A stretch of DNA of 17,389 nt from Bordetella parapertussis (GTDB taxonomy: Bacteria; Pseudomonadota; Gammaproteobacteria; Burkholderiales; SG8-41), in assembly GCA_945870465.1 (NCBI GenBank), contig CAMBSS010000090.1:1-17389 (forward strand), in the 5' to 3' direction. How positions within the stretch are numbered: the stretch's first letter is position 1; every line of letters starts with the position of its first letter. Under the pieces are notes generated by a model. That model worked only from the letters and a program-made list of their open reading frames with translations. It was not told where the DNA came from and ran no database searches. A program made the position numbers and the translations under genes. Positions 3,660-17,145 of this stretch are shown here, in pieces.

Positions 3660-4838
3660 TCATTTGATCGGCTCCGCGCCCTCGCCCAGTAATTTCAGAT
3701 ATGCATGATACGCGTACACCTTGCTGCGTCTGCGGCCGGTCATTTCGCGCACGACACCGAGCTTAACCAGATGTTTCATCGCTGCCGTCACCGTCGGTTG
3801 TGACAACCGAAGTCGCTTGGCGGCACGCGGTATTGAATAGACGACGTGCGCCTTGAATGCATCGTGCAATCTCAACGCCGAGGCAGCAGACCGTCCCAGC
3901 TTTTCCACTCTTGTGCGGTCCTCGCGAAATAATTCCAGGATGCGCTGTGCCGTACGCGTTGCCTGCTCGGTGGTGTCGATGATGCCCGACAGAAAGAAAT
4001 GCAGCCACGCTTCCCACGCGCCCTCCGTGCGCACGCGTTGCAATAACTGGTAATAAGCATCGCGATGCTTCTTGAAATACAGACTTAGATAAAGCATCGG
4101 CTGCGCGAGCGCGTCTTCGACACAAAACAGCAGCGTGATCAGCAGCCGGCCGACGCGGCCATTGCCGTCGAGAAACGGGTGGATTGTCTCGAACTGGACG
4201 TGTGCCAATGCGGCCTTCACCAATAGCGGCACTTTCACGGGGTCGTCGTGCAGAAATTTTTCAAGTGCGCCCATGCACTCCATAACCTTGTGCGGCGGCG
4301 GCGGGACAAATGACGCGTTACCCGGTCGCGAACCGCCGATCCAGTTTTGCGTCGTGCGGAATTCTCCGGGCGCCTTGTTACCGCCGCGCCCCTTGGACAA
4401 CAGTTTTTGATGTATCTCCCTGATTAACCGGAGCGAGAGCGGGAATCCACCGCGCAAACGTGTGAGGCCGTGATTCATCGCCGCAACGTAATTTGATACT
4501 TCTTGGACATCGTTAATGGGTACGCCGGGCACTTCCTTGTTTTCGTAGAGCAGCAGATCGGAGAATGACGATTGCGTGCCTTCGATTTGCGAGGAAAGCA
4601 GCGCCTCCTTGCGCACATACATGTACAGGAAAAGTTCCGGGTCGGGAAACAGACGCGCGATGCCGTCCAGGCGCCCGAGTCCGCGGTTCGCCTTCTCAAG
4701 CAAGTCGTGCAGGTCTGGGCCGATGTCGAGTGGAGGATCGGGCGGCAACGGGGGTGGCACGAATGCCCGTACGTTTTCGCCCCCAACGCTCGTTGTCACG
4801 TGGGTTCCCAGACGTGGATTTGCGGAGGCTGCCGGCAC
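3660..4838 (-). CDS. Fic-family AMP-transferase with C-terminal winged helix
   Basis: Fic proteins transfer AMP (or another nucleotide moiety) from NTPs to hydroxyl groups of target proteins. The 392-residue protein has a Fic N-terminal domain with the inhibitory motif SSQIEG at 82-87 (pattern S/TxxxEG/N, so N-terminal class II autoinhibition). The canonical active-site motif HPFLDGNGRVGR is at 220-231 (catalytic H220), and a substrate-clamping flap lies around WIGGSRPGNASFVPPPP. A C-terminal wHTH (about 330-380, RLRLSQPTVTAAMKHLVKLGVV) suggests DNA binding. GTG 4838 gives the longest frame; GTG 4799 is an alternative. It interrupts the usual ruvA-ruvB adjacency and carries its own upstream dyad, so it is probably an acquired gene. 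The target is unknown. Confidence 0.9.
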   Translation of the reverse strand: MPAASANPRLGTHVTTSVGGENVRAFVPPPLPPDPPLDIGPDLHDLLEKANRGLGRLDGIARLFPDPELFLYMYVRKEALLSSQIEGTQSSFSDLLLYENKEVPGVPINDVQEVSNYVAAMNHGLTRLRGGFPLSLRLIREIHQKLLSKGRGGNKAPGEFRTTQNWIGGSRPGNASFVPPPPHKVMECMGALEKFLHDDPVKVPLLVKAALAHVQFETIHPFLDGNGRVGRLLITLLFCVEDALAQPMLYLSLYFKKHRDAYYQLLQRVRTEGAWEAWLHFFLSGIIDTTEQATRTAQRILELFREDRTRVEKLGRSAASALRLHDAFKAHVVYSIPRAAKRLRLSQPTVTAAMKHLVKLGVVREMTGRRRSKVYAYHAYLKLLGEGAEPIK

Positions 4839-4995: not shown

Positions 4996-5568
4996 TCACG
5001 ATTTCGAAAGCAACTTCAGCGCCTGCCGTATGCCATCCGCCACTGCGGTGCCCGCCGGCAATTGCTTGACGGCCCACGCCGCTTCTTTCTCATTGTAGCC
5101 CAGCGCCTGCAATGCATTGAGGATGTCGCCGCCGTTCGCGCCCGCGGAATTCGCCGCCACCACTGTTACGTCGAGCTTGTCTTTCAGTTCCAGCAGCAGA
5201 CGCTCGGCGGTCTTCTTGCCGATGCCGGGGACTTTGATGAGGCGCGCGCTGTCCTGCGTGCTCACCGCGTCGTACAAATCGCCGATGCTCATGCCGGAGA
5301 GCACCGATAACGCGGTGCGCGCCCCGACACCGGAAATTTTCAGCAACTGGCGGAAAACGTGGCGCTCCTGCTCGCTGGCAAAACCGTAGAGCAGGTGCGC
5401 GTCTTCACGCACCAGCAGGTGGGTGAAGAGAGTGACGTCGCTGCCCGTCGCCGGCAACTGGTAGAAGGTACTCATCGGCACGTCGATTTCGTAGCCGATG
5501 CCCTGCACGTCGACGATCACCTGCGGCGGGTGCCGCGCGATGAGTTTGCCACTGATCCTGCCGATCAA
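4996..5568 (-). CDS. ruvA: RuvA, Holliday-junction-binding protein
   Basis: RuvA tetramers clamp the Holliday junction and recruit RuvB. The 190-residue protein has the N-terminal OB-fold domain (MIGRISGKL..., about 1-62), the acidic pin E55-D56, and two helix-hairpin-helix motifs ([10 protein letters not shown] at 78-87 and [13 protein letters not shown] at 113-125). A C-terminal RuvB-binding domain contains [12 protein letters not shown]. The start is a TTG (5568-5566) overlapping the ruvC TGA stop by TTGA and preceded by a good Shine-Dalgarno, GGGAGG, supporting translational coupling. No ruvB follows directly; fic intervenes. Confidence 0.95.
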
Positions 5569-6134
5569 ACCAGCCTCCCGCGTTTCATGCGATACCCTGC
5601 AGTCGCCAGTTTACCGAGTCCCTGCCCGCCGTGCGCATGGCAGATTGCGCAAGCCAGCGCGTCGGCGGCGTCCGCGCTGGGGCTGCCCGTGAGCTTGAGC
5701 AGACGCTTGACCATGTCCTGCACCTGGCTCTTGTCAGCGTGGCCATTGCCGACCACCGCCTGCTTGACCTGCAATGCGGTGTATTCCGACACCTGCAGTT
5801 CATGCAGCACCGCCGCGCAGATCGCAGTGCCGCGCGCCTGTCCGAGCAAAAGCGTGGATTGCGGATTGACGTTGACGAATACTTTTTCGATGGCAACCTG
5901 GTCGGGCTTCACGCTGGCTATGACTTCACGCAGACCATCAAGTATGACTTTGAGGCGCGTCGCCAGGTCGCCGGCCGCCGGTGTCTTGATGCAGCCGCTG
6001 GTGACATAGGCGAGCGTGCTGCCGGTCTTGTCGAGCACGCCGAAACCCGTGATCCGGAGTCCCGGATCTATTCCCAGGACGCGAATGCGTCCTGGGGGAG
6101 AGACGAGAGGCGAGAGGTGAGAGGCGCGTTTCAC
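5565..6134 (-). CDS. ruvC: RuvC, Holliday-junction resolvase
   Basis: RuvC is the Mg-dependent endonuclease that cleaves Holliday junctions symmetrically. In this 189-residue frame the four RNase-H-fold catalytic acids are D23 (GIDPG), E83 (VAIEKVF), D155 and D158 ([17 protein letters not shown]), spaced as in the family. The start is a GTG that overlaps the TGA of the preceding four-helix-bundle gene (GTGA). The first roughly 15 residues ([15 protein letters not shown]) are translated from the CT arm of the repeat and are not part of the family core, which begins at IRVLGIDPG. No Shine-Dalgarno is evident. A 10-bp perfect hairpin (6073-6082/6087-6096, loop GAAT) lies at the junction between repeat and core. 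Confidence 0.93.
6097..6127. repeat. Family A element, left arm flanking the four-helix-bundle gene
   Basis: The plus strand reads GGAGAGACGAGAGGCGAGAGG then TGAGAGGCG, a 7-nt-periodic GAGAGGC array. It is the inverted counterpart of the array at 6505-6536 on the other side of the four-helix-bundle gene. On the coding strand it begins 5 nt after that gene's TGA and lies inside the 5' coding part of ruvC. Confidence 0.8.
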
Positions 6135-6496
6135 GTGGACGCGCTTTTTCCGCGCTCCGCGTTAATCAATCCCCCAATCAACGCGAAAACCCTGTCAACG
6201 ATTCCCGAAATTTCCGCGGTATCGGATGCGAACCCAAGTTCCTTCGCAAGCACGATCAATGTATCCAGCTCTGACAGTGACCCCCTCGCAATAACGAAAA
6301 ACTGGACACGGTCTTTTGCGCCGCTACGGCCCACACCCTCTGCGATGTTTGCCGGGATCGACACGGCTGCCCGCCGGATTTGACTCGTAAGACCATAGAC
6401 CTCACTCTGCGGAAACCTCGCAGATAGCGCATAGACCGCCTTGACGAGAAGTATGGCCTGCTGCCAAACGACAAGGTCGTAGTGTTTGCGTGCCAT
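6131..6496 (-). CDS. Four-helix-bundle protein (S23/IVP, 23S rRNA-intervening-sequence type)
   Basis: The 121-residue protein matches the four-helix-bundle family first found in intervening sequences of bacterial 23S rRNA. Signature stretches are [19 protein letters not shown] at the N-terminus, then [27 protein letters not shown] at about 29-55 (split here as [16 protein letters not shown] / [11 protein letters not shown]), then [17 protein letters not shown]. The family pentamerises and is related to the Avd accessory protein of diversity-generating retroelements; its molecular role outside rRNA is unknown. Here there is no rRNA nearby. It sits between yebC and ruvC, where these genes are usually adjacent, starts at ATG 6496, and overlaps the ruvC GTG by 4 nt. 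Inverted GAGAGGC arrays lie immediately outside it on both sides, suggesting it arrived as a unit. Confidence 0.88.
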
Positions 6497-6504
6497 TTCC
6501 TAAC

Positions 6505-6536
6505 CGCCTCTCGCCTATCGCCTCTCGCCTCTCTCA
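6505..6536. repeat. Family A element, right arm flanking the four-helix-bundle gene
   Basis: The plus strand reads CGCCTCTCGCCTATCG then CCTCTCGCCTCTCTCA. Read on the minus strand this is TGAGAGAGGCGAGAGG then CGATAGGCGAGAGGCG, so the TGA stop codon of yebC is the first triplet of the array. It forms inverted arms with 6097-6127. Only 8 nt separate it from the four-helix-bundle ATG. Confidence 0.8.
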
Positions 6537-7262
6537 GGCAGTGTCGAACACTGCCGTCGTATACACTTCCTGCACATCATCGACCGCTTCAAGCGCGTCG
6601 AGCAATTTCTGCATCTTGACCGCGTCGTCGCCTTTCAGCTCGCTTTCGGTCTCCGGCTTCATCAGCACGTCGGCGATTTCGGACTTGAAAGCCGCCTTCT
6701 CGAGCGCCGCTTTGATTTTCGAAAATTCGGTCCACGCCGTGATGACTTCGAGACTGCCATCATCGTTGGCTATGACGTCTTCGGCGCCGGCCTCGAGTGC
6801 GGCTTCCATCAATTTGTCTTCATTGGTGCCCGGCGCGAACACGAGCTGCCCGCAATGCTTGAAGAGGAAAGCAACCGAGCCGTCGGTGCCGAGATTGCCG
6901 CCGTACTTGGTGAAGGCGTGCCGCACGTCGGCGACAGTGCGCGTCCGGTTGTCGGTCATGCAATCGACGATGACCGCCGCGCCCGCGATGCCGTAGCCCT
7001 CGTAGCGGATTTCCTCGTAATTGACGCCTTCAAGATCGCCAGCGCCGCGTTTGATGGCGCGCTCGACGTTGTCCTTCGGCATGTTGTTGGCGTAGGCCTT
7101 GTCGACCGCCAGCCGCAGGCGCGGGTTCGCCCCCGGATCGCCGCCGCCCATGCGCGCGGCCACCGTAATTTCCTTGATGAGGCGGGTGAAGATCTTGCCG
7201 CGCTTGGCGTCCTGCTTGCCTTTGCGGTGCTGGATGTTCGCCCACTTGCTGTGACCTGCCAT
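6534..7262 (-). CDS. yebC: YebC/PmpR-family protein (TACO1 family)
   Basis: The 242-residue protein begins [23 protein letters not shown], the hallmark of YebC/TACO1 proteins. It contains the usual motifs [15 protein letters not shown] and [18 protein letters not shown]. Family members have been described as transcriptional regulators and, more recently, as ribosome-associated factors helping translation of difficult sequences such as proline runs; which applies here cannot be seen. It is the first gene of the minus-strand ruv cluster, divergent from the DUF853 gene. Its ATG (7262) is preceded by a weak purine stretch (CGGGAAAAAGC), and its stop codon is fused to the repeat arm that precedes the four-helix-bundle gene. 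Confidence 0.95.
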
Positions 7263-8947: not shown

Positions 8948-9137
8948 AACCCATCTCAAAAACACTACCCCGACAAGCAACCGCCGATAACCGCAGATTA
9001 ACGCCGACATAATTCCAGACATTGCCTCGAACCAACGACCAGTCACTTGAGCTTATCTGCGTTCATCCGCGTACCCCTCAAGGGGGTATTAAAAAGAATT
9101 CATCGGCGGTTCCAAATTGTTTTTGAGATAGGTTCTA
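8945..9137. mobile_element. MITE-like element, family B copy 1 (193 bp)
   Basis: The ends are near-perfect 20-bp terminal inverted repeats. TAGAACCCATCTCAAAAACA at 8945-8964 pairs with TGTTTTTGAGATAGGTTCTA at 9118-9137 with a single mismatch. Just inside are AACCGCCGAT and ATCGGCGGTT. No coding capacity is seen. The terminal TA could be a target duplication (as in IS630/Tc1-type elements), although CTAG on both sides also fits a YTAR-type target. A second copy is at 13604-13770. This element fills the whole DUF853-EamA gap and includes the DUF853 stop codon. An internal ACCCCT-CA-AGGGGGT hairpin at about 9072-9087 is specific to this copy. Confidence 0.8.
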
Positions 9138-12980: not shown

Positions 12981-13109
12981 CGAGGAAAGACCCGAGAGAC
13001 GCCAGGCGAGAGACGAGAGGCGCGCTTCGCCGAGAGGCGCCGGGCGAGAGACGAGAGGCGTAAAAGCGTTAAAACTCCGTCTATCGTCTGTCCTGCTTTT
13101 CGTCTCTCC
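12981..13109. repeat. Family A inverted GA/CT heptad element, copy 3 (cupin 3' end)
   Basis: The plus strand has a long purine-rich array (12981-13060, repeated CGAGAGACGAGAGGCG and CGAGAGGCGCCGGGCG units) and then a pyrimidine-rich core (13077-13109). On the minus strand the core reads GGAGAGACGAAAAGCAGG then ACAGACGATAGACGG and begins 1 nt after the cupin TGA. The core and the later CTCTCGCC-GGCG-CTCTCGGC-AAGC stretch both align with copy 1 near ruvB, in the opposite chromosomal orientation. Confidence 0.8.
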
Positions 13110-13603: not shown

Positions 13604-13770
13604 TAGAAGCTGCCTCAAAAACAGTTTGGAACCGCCGATGCACGCCGATAAACGCAGATAAGATCACGGGATTCTGACCTGGATTCTGGGAAAGTTCTGG
13701 AATTATATCGGCGTTAATCGGCGTACATCGGCGGTTGCTTGTCGGTGTTGTATTTTTTAGATGAGTTCTA
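13604..13770. mobile_element. MITE-like element, family B copy 2 (167 bp)
   Basis: Terminal inverted repeats TAGAAGCTGCCTCAAAAACA (13604-13623) and the complementary end at 13749-13770 (ATTTTTTAGATGAGTTCTA) enclose AACCGCCGATG/CATCGGCGGTT and GATAAACGCAGATAAG. Read on the minus strand it aligns along most of its length with the copy at 8945-9137, sharing for example CCGACAAGCAACCGCCGAT and TAATTCCAGA. It fills the gap between the DSD1-type gene (stop 8 nt away) and the cupin ATG (7 nt away). No coding capacity is seen. Confidence 0.8.
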
Positions 13771-16123: not shown

Positions 16124-16295
16124 GGGAGAGGGGGAGAGGGGAGGATTGAAGAGCGAGAGGGGAGAGGGGAGAGGCGAGTGGGGAGGCGGGAGTTGCTCTA
16201 AGGCTTCACTTCACTCCTCTCTCCTCTCTCCTCTCTCCTCTCTCCTCTCGCTTCTCGCTTCTCGGTTATTCGCTTCTCGGTTATTCGCTTCTCGC
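16124..16295. repeat. Family A inverted GA/CT heptad element, copy 4 (pth-ychF)
   Basis: The gap is filled by a purine-rich block (16124-16192, GGAGAGGGG units) and a pyrimidine-rich block (16214-16295). The latter includes four perfect tandem CCTCTCT heptamers (16216-16243), a fifth with T to G, and a 15-bp tandem pair CTTCTCGGTTATTCG (16258-16272 and 16273-16287). On the minus strand it starts 1 nt after the pth TGA and ends 7 nt before the ychF ATG. Confidence 0.85.
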
Positions 16296-16296
16296 T

Positions 16297-17145
16297 TCAT
16301 TTCTTGCCGTCCGGCAAAAGTTTTTTGAACAACGATTTCAGGCCGCCTTTTTTCTCCTCTGCTGGCGCCTGCTGCGGCTCCGGCGCGGGCATGGCCTTTT
16401 GCTGCTGCGCGGTCGACTCGGCAACGGCCGGCTTATCCGCCTTGGGCCGTTTGGTCGCCGCGGCCGGCTTTGCGTCCGATTCCGCCGCGGATGCATTTTC
16501 CGGCGTTTTCTCTTTCGTTTTCTCTTTCGCTTTGGCGGGCGCTTTTTCCGGTGCCGCTTTTTCCGGTGCTTTTGCCGGCGTTTTCTCAACTGTGTGCAAT
16601 TTCAACATCACGCCCGACATGTCACCGGCCAGCACCAGCGGCATAACATCCAGCGCGCGTCCTATGGTCTCGTCGATGGCCGCCCGGTCATCCGCACTGG
16701 GTTTGTTCAGTACGTAATCGCTCACCCCCTGGCGATCGCCCGGATGGCCGATGCCTATCCGCAACCGCCAGTAGTCGTGCGAGCCCAGGCGCGCCGATAT
16801 ATCCCGTAGCCCGTTGTGGCCGGCAATGCCGCCGCCCTGCTTGACCTTGGCGACGCCCGGCGCGAAATCGAGTTCGTCGTGCACCACCAGGATGTCGGCG
16901 GGCGCGATCTTGAAAAAGCTTGCCATCATCTGCACCGGCTGGCCGCTCGCGTTCATGAAGGTCTGCGGCAACAGCAGCCACACGCCGGACTCGGCGTGGC
17001 GGCCGACCAGCGCCTGGAACTTGGCGTCCTTGCGCATCGCGATGCCGTTCTGGGCGGCAAAACGCTCGATCAGCCAGAAGCCTGCGTTGTGGCGCGTGCG
17101 TTCGTATTTTTCGCCCGGATTGCCGAGCCCGATGATCAGTTTCAT
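16297..17145 (-). CDS. pth: Peptidyl-tRNA hydrolase with long C-terminal tail
   Basis: Pth recycles peptidyl-tRNA released from ribosomes. Residues 1 to about 187 form the catalytic domain with N9 (GLGNPG), H19 (TRHNAGF), N65 (TFMNASG), D90 (VVHDELDF) and N111 (AGHNGLRD), corresponding to the known active-site and tRNA-binding residues. The protein is 282 residues, whereas the family is usually about 190. The extra roughly 95 residues are low-complexity Lys/Ala/Pro/Glu repeats (TPAKAPEKAAPEKAPAKAKE) ending in a basic amphipathic segment, GGLKSLFKKLLPDGKK. The tail keeps an open frame and a strong codon bias, so it appears real. An ATG at 17145 follows the family C repeat by 5 nt. Confidence 0.93.
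   Translation of the reverse strand: MKLIIGLGNPGEKYERTRHNAGFWLIERFAAQNGIAMRKDAKFQALVGRHAESGVWLLLPQTFMNASGQPVQMMASFFKIAPADILVVHDELDFAPGVAKVKQGGGIAGHNGLRDISARLGSHDYWRLRIGIGHPGDRQGVSDYVLNKPSADDRAAIDETIGRALDVMPLVLAGDMSGVMLKLHTVEKTPAKAPEKAAPEKAPAKAKEKTKEKTPENASAAESDAKPAAATKRPKADKPAVAESTAQQQKAMPAPEPQQAPAEEKKGGLKSLFKKLLPDGKK

Follow-up and report, generated by a model that had tools for sequence, protein, structure and literature searches.

An S23-type gene between inverted heptamer arrays at the yebC-ruvC junction: a candidate mRNA-borne relative of 23S rRNA intervening sequences

An S23/IVP-type four-helix-bundle gene flanked by inverted arrays of a 7-nt repeat is located between yebC and ruvC in the window, i.e. 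the whole stretch of 17,389 nucleotides that was analysed. Gene and arrays are interpreted here, with a probability of roughly two in three, as an "S23 element": an mRNA-borne relative of the intervening sequences (IVS) of 23S rRNA, whose S23 protein would recognise its own repeat unit, the binding and the chemistry of movement being putative.

The gene (6131 to 6496, minus strand) encodes 121 amino acids and is the sole gene-like ORF in the gap between yebC and ruvC. Profile searches assign its product to PF05635 (110.8 bits, cut-off 33.8) and TIGR02436 (105.4 bits, cut-off 24), which confirms the original prediction that an S23-type gene is the only one at this junction. The closest solved structure is 2gsc (XCC0516, E-value 4.9e-27), a homopentamer of four-helix bundles according to literature cited in the accessible text of PMC4990558. 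A profile of 12 IVP proteins compared with solved structures retrieved 2gsc and 2rld and no Avd entry; Avd is the protein of diversity-generating retroelements whose fold is given as homologous to S23 in the accessible part of PMC10053308. In Pfam, PF05635 is the sole domain of the window protein, which thus contains no known nuclease, transposase or reverse transcriptase.

The host genes yebC (6534 to 7262) and ruvC (5565 to 6134) are found upstream and downstream on the same minus strand. The 5' arm (6505 to 6533, minus strand) comprises about four GAGAGGC units and lies between the yebC stop and the IVP start, a distance of 37 nt that is array for the most part. In the 3' arm (6098 to 6126, minus strand) the unit is inverted relative to the 5' arm. 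This arm doubles as coding sequence for RuvC residues 4 to 12, and the ruvC start is located inside the element, its GTG codon (6132 to 6134) sharing bases with the IVP stop (GTGA). The arms are 29 nt long each and 90% complementary, and a tandem-repeat finder reports period 7 and 4.1 copies for each of them, which places both among the heptanucleotide STRR, defined as tandem 7-nt intergenic repeats. The inverted 7-nt-periodic arrays expected on both sides of the gene are therefore present, with limits a few bases inside those given before. Their arm score of 21.5 was reached by none of 1000 dinucleotide shuffles of both 120-nt flanks (maximum 14). The element measures about 0.44 kb, and in the predicted RNA fold the arms are paired with each other (MFE -196.3 kcal/mol, z -4.95, 0/100 shuffles as low). 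A search for a sigma-70-like promoter between 6050 and 6650 found none, and an Rfam scan of the whole window gave no match. With complementary arms and an ORF in the loop, the architecture resembles an IVS outside 23S rRNA, in a protein-coding operon, as had been proposed.

The unit GAGAGGC occurs 11 times in the window compared with 2.73 expected occurrences, and none of 200 shuffles contained as many. Paired arrays without a gene, also noticed in the original prediction, are located at three further places: a GAGAGGC-type inverted pair at 2495 to 2596 between ruvB and an acyl-CoA thioesterase-like gene (named from our own reading), a GAGAGGC/GAGAGAC-type inverted pair at 12991 to 13107, and an inverted pair of the GAGAGGG/GAGAGGA type at 16124 to 16298 between pth and ychF. 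At the pth-ychF junction, the window has this gene-less array only, and the loci L167 and L170 have an IVP gene within arrays. Together with three remnants at the yebC-ruvC junction of relatives (L113, L115 and L139, see below), this supports the view that gene-less copies are derivatives.

Inverted arms, defined by an inverted-arm score of at least 14 within 120 nt of the gene, were detected at 100 of 156 IVP genes, compared with 6 of the 697 further ORFs in these loci, which served as controls, and 1 of 468 shuffles, so that the proposed link between S23-type genes and arrays is upheld. An array score of at least 10 on at least one side was obtained for 121 of the 156 IVP genes, 124 of the 697 control ORFs and 3 of the 468 shuffles. 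Since control ORFs often have a one-sided array, arrays without an S23 gene appear to be common in the sampled loci. Neither arrays nor arms were found at 10 of the 156 genes at the thresholds used. The 156 genes are full-length and stem from loci of many phyla; they remained from 173 non-redundant genes after full length and flanks of at least 80 nt on both sides were required. The first statistics are based on 80 loci picked for likeness to the window protein, plus loci from their genomes and relatives. Later sets were obtained with other queries. The gene-finding profile was built from 30 of the 80 proteins. Inverted arms are present at 17 of 25 genes of a hold-out set (reduced from 30 loci, one of the 25 being L001's own element), at 26 of 28 S23 genes in Mesorhizobium, many of them at one site, and at 12 of 28 in Spirochaetota, a lower share than in the other sets. 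PF05635 matches above the cut-off occur in 23 of 60 genomes around G001, 48 of 61 Mesorhizobium genomes and 39 of 247 Spirochaetota genomes, and 61 of 369 genomes of the class encode XCC0516-like proteins (E ≤ 0.001). The inverted-array architecture is a property of most sampled family members across phyla.

Among the 88 genes with arrays on both sides, the period is 7 in 75 cases, 8 in 12 and 9 in one. A unit common to both arms was found for 67 of these 88 genes, compared with 181 of 5682 combinations of swapped arms and 10 of 88 genes when both arms were read on the same strand. S23 genes within one genome differ in their units. The 5' arm is purine-rich at 47 of 54 independent sites, and units are slightly more alike within an arm than between arms (0.821 vs 0.770, p 0.04). 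At non-homologous sites, units are alike in at least 6 of 7 positions in 27% of 140 pairs at 60-70% protein identity and 21% of 14 pairs at 70-80%, compared with 1.8-2.0% of pairs at 30-50%. Unit and protein are correlated overall (Mantel r 0.284, 0/5000 permutations) in a set of 45 genes of period 7, each with matching arms and each from a different site. Arrays of Shine-Dalgarno sequences were rejected as the whole explanation: many units are AGGAGTC-like, but AGTTTTT, GTTCAAA and TAATTAT are not, and the 3' arm carries the complement. Recognition of the unit by the S23 protein would be the simplest account of units that are gene-specific, inverted and track the protein. The earlier suggestion that the four-helix bundle recognises the arms has thereby gained indirect support from comparison of sequences, as the unit tracks the protein and, in several genomes, the arrays scattered elsewhere have the unit of the yebC-ruvC element.

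To follow the element in relatives, RuvC was searched in G001 and 59 relatives and matched in 55 of these 60 genomes; the best 30 of the 55 matches were turned into loci. By eye, four of these 30 yebC-ruvC junctions contain a full S23 element (L111, L119, L122 and L123, with L111 and L001 belonging to one genome), three contain an internally deleted element with arrays (L113, L115, L139), ten are gene-less with a one- or two-sided array, and at the remaining 13 neither arrays nor gene are found. The latter are empty sites of the kind for which a comparison of close relatives had been recommended. Arrays are present in all five full elements (window, L001, L119, L122, L123), so that a gene without arrays, an arrangement named beforehand as speaking against the link, does not occur among them. 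All five also share an ATGA or GTGA overlap with the ruvC start. Across the relatives, the units at this junction are GAGAGGC, GTGAGGC, GAAAGAC, GGATTGA and GTGAAGG. With a FastTree support of 0.965, the five full S23 proteins are monophyletic, which argues for a single and old insertion that is inherited and whose unit has changed in both arms in concert. Repeated recent insertion at yebC-ruvC is rejected for the five full elements, which form one clade. The original reading as a mobile element is partly supported: the architecture is IVS-like and an element in G016 is present in duplicate (see below), but yebC-ruvC itself carries one old insertion. In the empty relative L118, the sequence after yebC is, in our reading, GCGTGACGGCA, in which a possible GTG start of ruvC may likewise overlap with the yebC stop; in that case, the insertion would have interrupted an existing coupling and established a new one.

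Two further observations concern the ruv operon. At its second junction, ruvA-ruvB, an S23 gene with a GGATTGA-type array is found in G033 (L114/L147) and G025 (L117/L165). The window itself carries a Fic-family gene (PF13784 and PF02661) between ruvA and ruvB (3660 to 4838), and L001 has a near-identical Fic-family ORF in the same position.

Across the family, the genomic location follows a common pattern. In a sample of 70 independent sites, the S23 gene is codirectional with both neighbours at 43 of 45 tandem gene junctions (control ORFs, 174 vs 30). The S23 start follows the upstream stop at a median distance of 60 nt, and the next start follows the S23 stop at a median of 51 nt. At the mmsB junction of Mesorhizobium, the best 30 of 61 matches comprise 8 filled alleles, one gene-less array of another unit and 21 array-free junctions, one of the latter with an unrelated short insert. 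Filled alleles extend from the upstream stop to the mmsB Shine-Dalgarno sequence; in 7 of 8 cases the array provides this stop with a TAG of its own, and by eye the element replaces about 8-15 nt of spacer. Filled and unfilled alleles are scattered over the tree of the flanking genes, with 11 changes, at least 6 of them forced by starred branches; shuffled assignments gave a mean of 12.4 changes, and 135 of 500 were as low as 11. The IVP gene at this junction shows a dN/dS of 0.069, as low as the 0.072 of mmsB. Its dS is similar to that of mmsB, being lower in only 87 of 225 pairs (six loci counted twice), and a recent sweep at mmsB is thus unsupported. In Mesorhizobium G492 (L245), a gene-less inverted GTAGTGA-type array occupies the mmsB junction where relatives have a TAGGCAG S23 element, which suggests that the junction may be a repeated target.

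A plasmid junction of Nostoc, represented by six records, is filled in NZ_CP040276 and NZ_CP054697, empty in NZ_CP040292 and NZ_CP117770, and contains gene-less repeats in NZ_CP046706 and NZ_CP040289. A target-site duplication was not seen by eye at the empty and filled sites of mmsB and the Nostoc plasmids. In G016, one element is found at two unrelated places with 91% protein identity and 88% DNA identity over 523 nt. The duplicated stretch begins 90 nt ahead of the gene, ends 55 nt behind it and includes the arms, and the remainder of 700 nt on either side shows no similarity. According to our reading of the translations, one copy is located between two ABC-transporter-like genes and the other behind a gene resembling that of alanine racemase, both no more than about 15 nt from a stop codon. 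A pair of Calothrix plasmids was discarded as a further case; the regions are homologous and hence uninformative. One cyanobacterial S23 protein searched against phages gave no match. Taken together, the empty sites, the remnants, the two-site duplication and the codirectional arrangement indicate that the element resides downstream of a stop codon and ahead of the ribosome-binding site that comes next. Insertion at operon junctions could also explain, without a role in CRISPR, the 18 S23 genes inside cas loci that are listed in the accessible text of PMC3936711.

The strongest competing explanation is that the locus is regulatory and not mobile. The arms would then form an RNA stem in the operon transcript, acting as an RNase III site or in translational coupling or attenuation, and the S23 protein would be a host RNA-binding regulator of its own and other arrays. 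The codirectional position between stop and ribosome-binding site, the pairing of the arms in the predicted fold, the purifying selection and the coupling to ruvC in all five full elements are what a regulator would also show, and translational regulation has been proposed earlier for TAACTGA arrays (PMC4679880, accessible text). However, the scattered presence at a single junction, with 11 changes against a shuffled mean of 12.4 and at least 6 forced, the different units at orthologous junctions of relatives, and the occurrence of the G016 element at two unrelated places fit an element better than a regulon, and the regulatory explanation is considered unlikely.

The repeat units also occur as dispersed arrays, which were counted as exact matches to a GAGAGGC pair or a GTGAGGC pair, overlapping matches included. 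The respective counts are 86 and 8 in G001, 24 and 3 in G050, and 59 and 12 in G043, which has a remnant with GAGAGGC at yebC-ruvC. Where the unit at yebC-ruvC is GTGAGGC, they are 0 and 150 (G046), 24 and 31 (G022), 0 and 26 (G037), and 1 and 2 (G053), the last at the level of the control pattern; G035, with GAAAGAC at this junction, has 2 and 1. Dispersed arrays thus often follow the unit of the yebC-ruvC element, most clearly in G001, G050 and G046. In Mesorhizobium, the median number of TAGGCAG matches per genome is 20.5 with an S23 gene at mmsB (n=18), 5.5 with other S23 genes only (n=30) and 5.0 without any (n=13); the first group differs from the rest with p 1e-4, a comparison of related genomes that are not independent samples. 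Arrays also exist apart from a cognate gene. G033 has 60 GAGAGGC-pair matches, yet its single detected S23 gene carries a GGATTGA-type array; G028 has 80 such matches and none of its three S23 genes carries the unit; and G478 has at least nine TAGGCAG places versus 2 S23 matches. Arrays in genomes with no family member, which the original prediction regarded as breaking the link, do literally occur: exact TAGGCAG arrays in 8 of 13 Mesorhizobium genomes without a PF05635 match, and 77, 33, 26 and 17 GTGAGGC-pair matches in the betaproteobacterial drafts G047, G052, G037 and G029, likewise without one. These arrays may be relics, or genes may have been missed in the drafts.

Such surpluses would also be expected if the arrays came first, i.e. 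if tandem repeats born by slippage served as a landing site and S23 genes, carried by another agent, settled in the loop of existing inverted pairs. Array places that outnumber S23 genes as in G478, arrays that persist without a detected gene and the slightly greater likeness of units within an arm, as local slippage would give, agree with this order of events. However, an insertion splitting a single tandem array would produce direct instead of inverted arms, unit and protein stay associated at unrelated sites, the piece duplicated in G016 includes the arms, and the mmsB and Nostoc plasmid junctions come close to a comparison of array-free empty alleles with filled alleles that have gene plus arms. 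Arrays as the primary component are therefore regarded as improbable, even more so than a regulatory role. Chance or base composition can be dismissed: two-copy short repeats are frequently accidental, but the comparisons with shuffles (0/1000 at the window, 1/468 vs 100/156) and control ORFs (6/697) rule it out, and the result was repeated in separately fetched sets (17/25, 26/28 and 12/28).

For the S23 element, the following course of events is proposed. The S23 gene probably lacks a promoter of its own and would be translated from the host mRNA. Its product would bind the element's own unit, which is purine-rich in most cases, and would most likely do so on the transcript or where the arms form a single-stranded hairpin; the orientation of the gene, the purine polarity of the arms and the position between stop and ribosome-binding site point to a transcript or transcribed hairpin as the likely substrate. 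Recognition of the unit would keep the two arms, and the gene-less arrays elsewhere in the genome, from diverging in unit, and it would allow gene-less copies to move in trans. The element may be tolerated since it can restore the stop/start coupling of the host genes. As a guess, host enzymes could copy a nucleic-acid intermediate to give a new element, with specificity provided by the S23 protein. The classical IVS of 23S rRNA would be the rRNA-borne form of the same element.

The S23-type IVS of Coxiella and Leptospira 23S rRNA and the window element both have complementary arms that enclose an S23/IVP ORF as their loop. Unlike these, the window element is located in a protein-coding operon and not inside a 23S rRNA helix, its arms are inverted heptamer arrays, and gene-less relatives are found in the same window. 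For the Coxiella IVS, the accessible text of PMC4990558 describes tandem heptamers (GACAGAT) directly before the S23 ORF and a 28-bp terminal stem that is cleaved by RNase III in vitro, and it states no known function for the S23 protein. In our reading, the GACAGAT heptamers may form a bridge between rRNA-borne and mRNA-borne forms. None of the S23 genes in 39 loci scanned with Rfam is located in 23S rRNA; these loci include 29 new Spirochaetota loci (L299-L327), the scan covering PF05635 matches strong enough to be given a locus. The tie to the 23S IVS therefore rests on the literature.

The STRR of cyanobacteria are heptamer repeats. Further heptamers are GGGAATC in Xanthomonas and GGGGA(C/T)T in Nostoc, with 70 convergent pairs in X. 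campestris (PMC4692102, accessible text), and the TAACTGA arrays of Beggiatoaceae, in which indels mostly occur in 7-nt steps (PMC4679880, accessible text). All of these resemble the window arrays in being intergenic, tandem, close to stop and start codons and arranged in convergent pairs; in the window, in contrast, the unit is tied to a neighbouring protein. The accessible texts of PMC4692102 and PMC4679880 do not mention 23S, four helix or intervening, and XCC0516 is not mentioned in that of PMC4692102, the Xanthomonas heptamer paper. A search of the class sample for XCC0516 itself, meant to show whether GGGAATC flanks its gene, gave 55% identity at best among the top rows and hence no close match. 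In the literature searched, which left preprints and most subscription journals uncovered, no paper was found that links S23 genes with tandem arrays, apart from the heptamers of the Coxiella IVS, nor one that gives a source for the heptamer repeats of cyanobacteria and others.

REPIN/RAYT systems consist of dispersed gene-less palindromic repeats and a cognate Y1 transposase gene flanked by the same repeat. The window likewise combines gene-less repeats with a cognate gene, but its protein is a four-helix bundle and not a Y1 transposase, the enclosed gene matches PF05635 only, and S23 units are 7-9 nt long and in tandem. The element shares inverted ends with insertion sequences and MITEs and differs from them in having an S23 gene as its sole gene and no target-site duplication recognisable by eye.

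S23 elements may account for scattered heptamer repeats that have been puzzling for decades, and a link between protein and unit makes both S23 function and repeat origin directly testable. If correct, the family would comprise small proteins reading short tandem repeats, their specificity varying from copy to copy, and a natural dataset of protein-unit pairs would already be available in genomes.

A comparable arrangement was found for an unrelated, nuclease-like protein. GxxExxY/PDDEXK_3 (PF13366) genes of relatives are flanked by inverted short tandem arrays at 19 of 26 genes (L328-L357, 30 matches reduced to 26) versus 0 of 75 control ORFs. The units are mostly 8-10 nt long, in contrast to the S23 units, and unit length may go with the protein family. 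A general class is conceivable as a tentative extension that falls slightly short of even odds. In it, a small protein gene would lie between inverted arrays, the protein family would set the unit length (7-8 nt for S23, 8-10 nt for PDDEXK_3/GxxExxY) and the protein would read its own unit. Such elements would settle between stop codon and ribosome-binding site, seed gene-less arrays and drag them along when specificity drifts, and the heptamers of cyanobacteria, Xanthomonas and Beggiatoa as well as the 23S IVS would originate from them. The window contains gene-less 10-nt arrays of the ACGCCGATAA kind at 8979 to 9110 and 13630 to 13736, whose unit is the one found at GxxExxY genes in L333 and L334.

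Two arrangements of S23 genes were seen in addition. A tandem pair of S23 genes, 72% identical and with arrays around both, is present in G039 (L150). In four alphaproteobacterial genera (L022, L028, L046, L106), the end of a nuoC-like gene, named from a reading of the flanking DNA, is directly followed by an S23 element, with units of the GGCAGTC, GTGAATG, GGCGAAT and GTAGTGA types.
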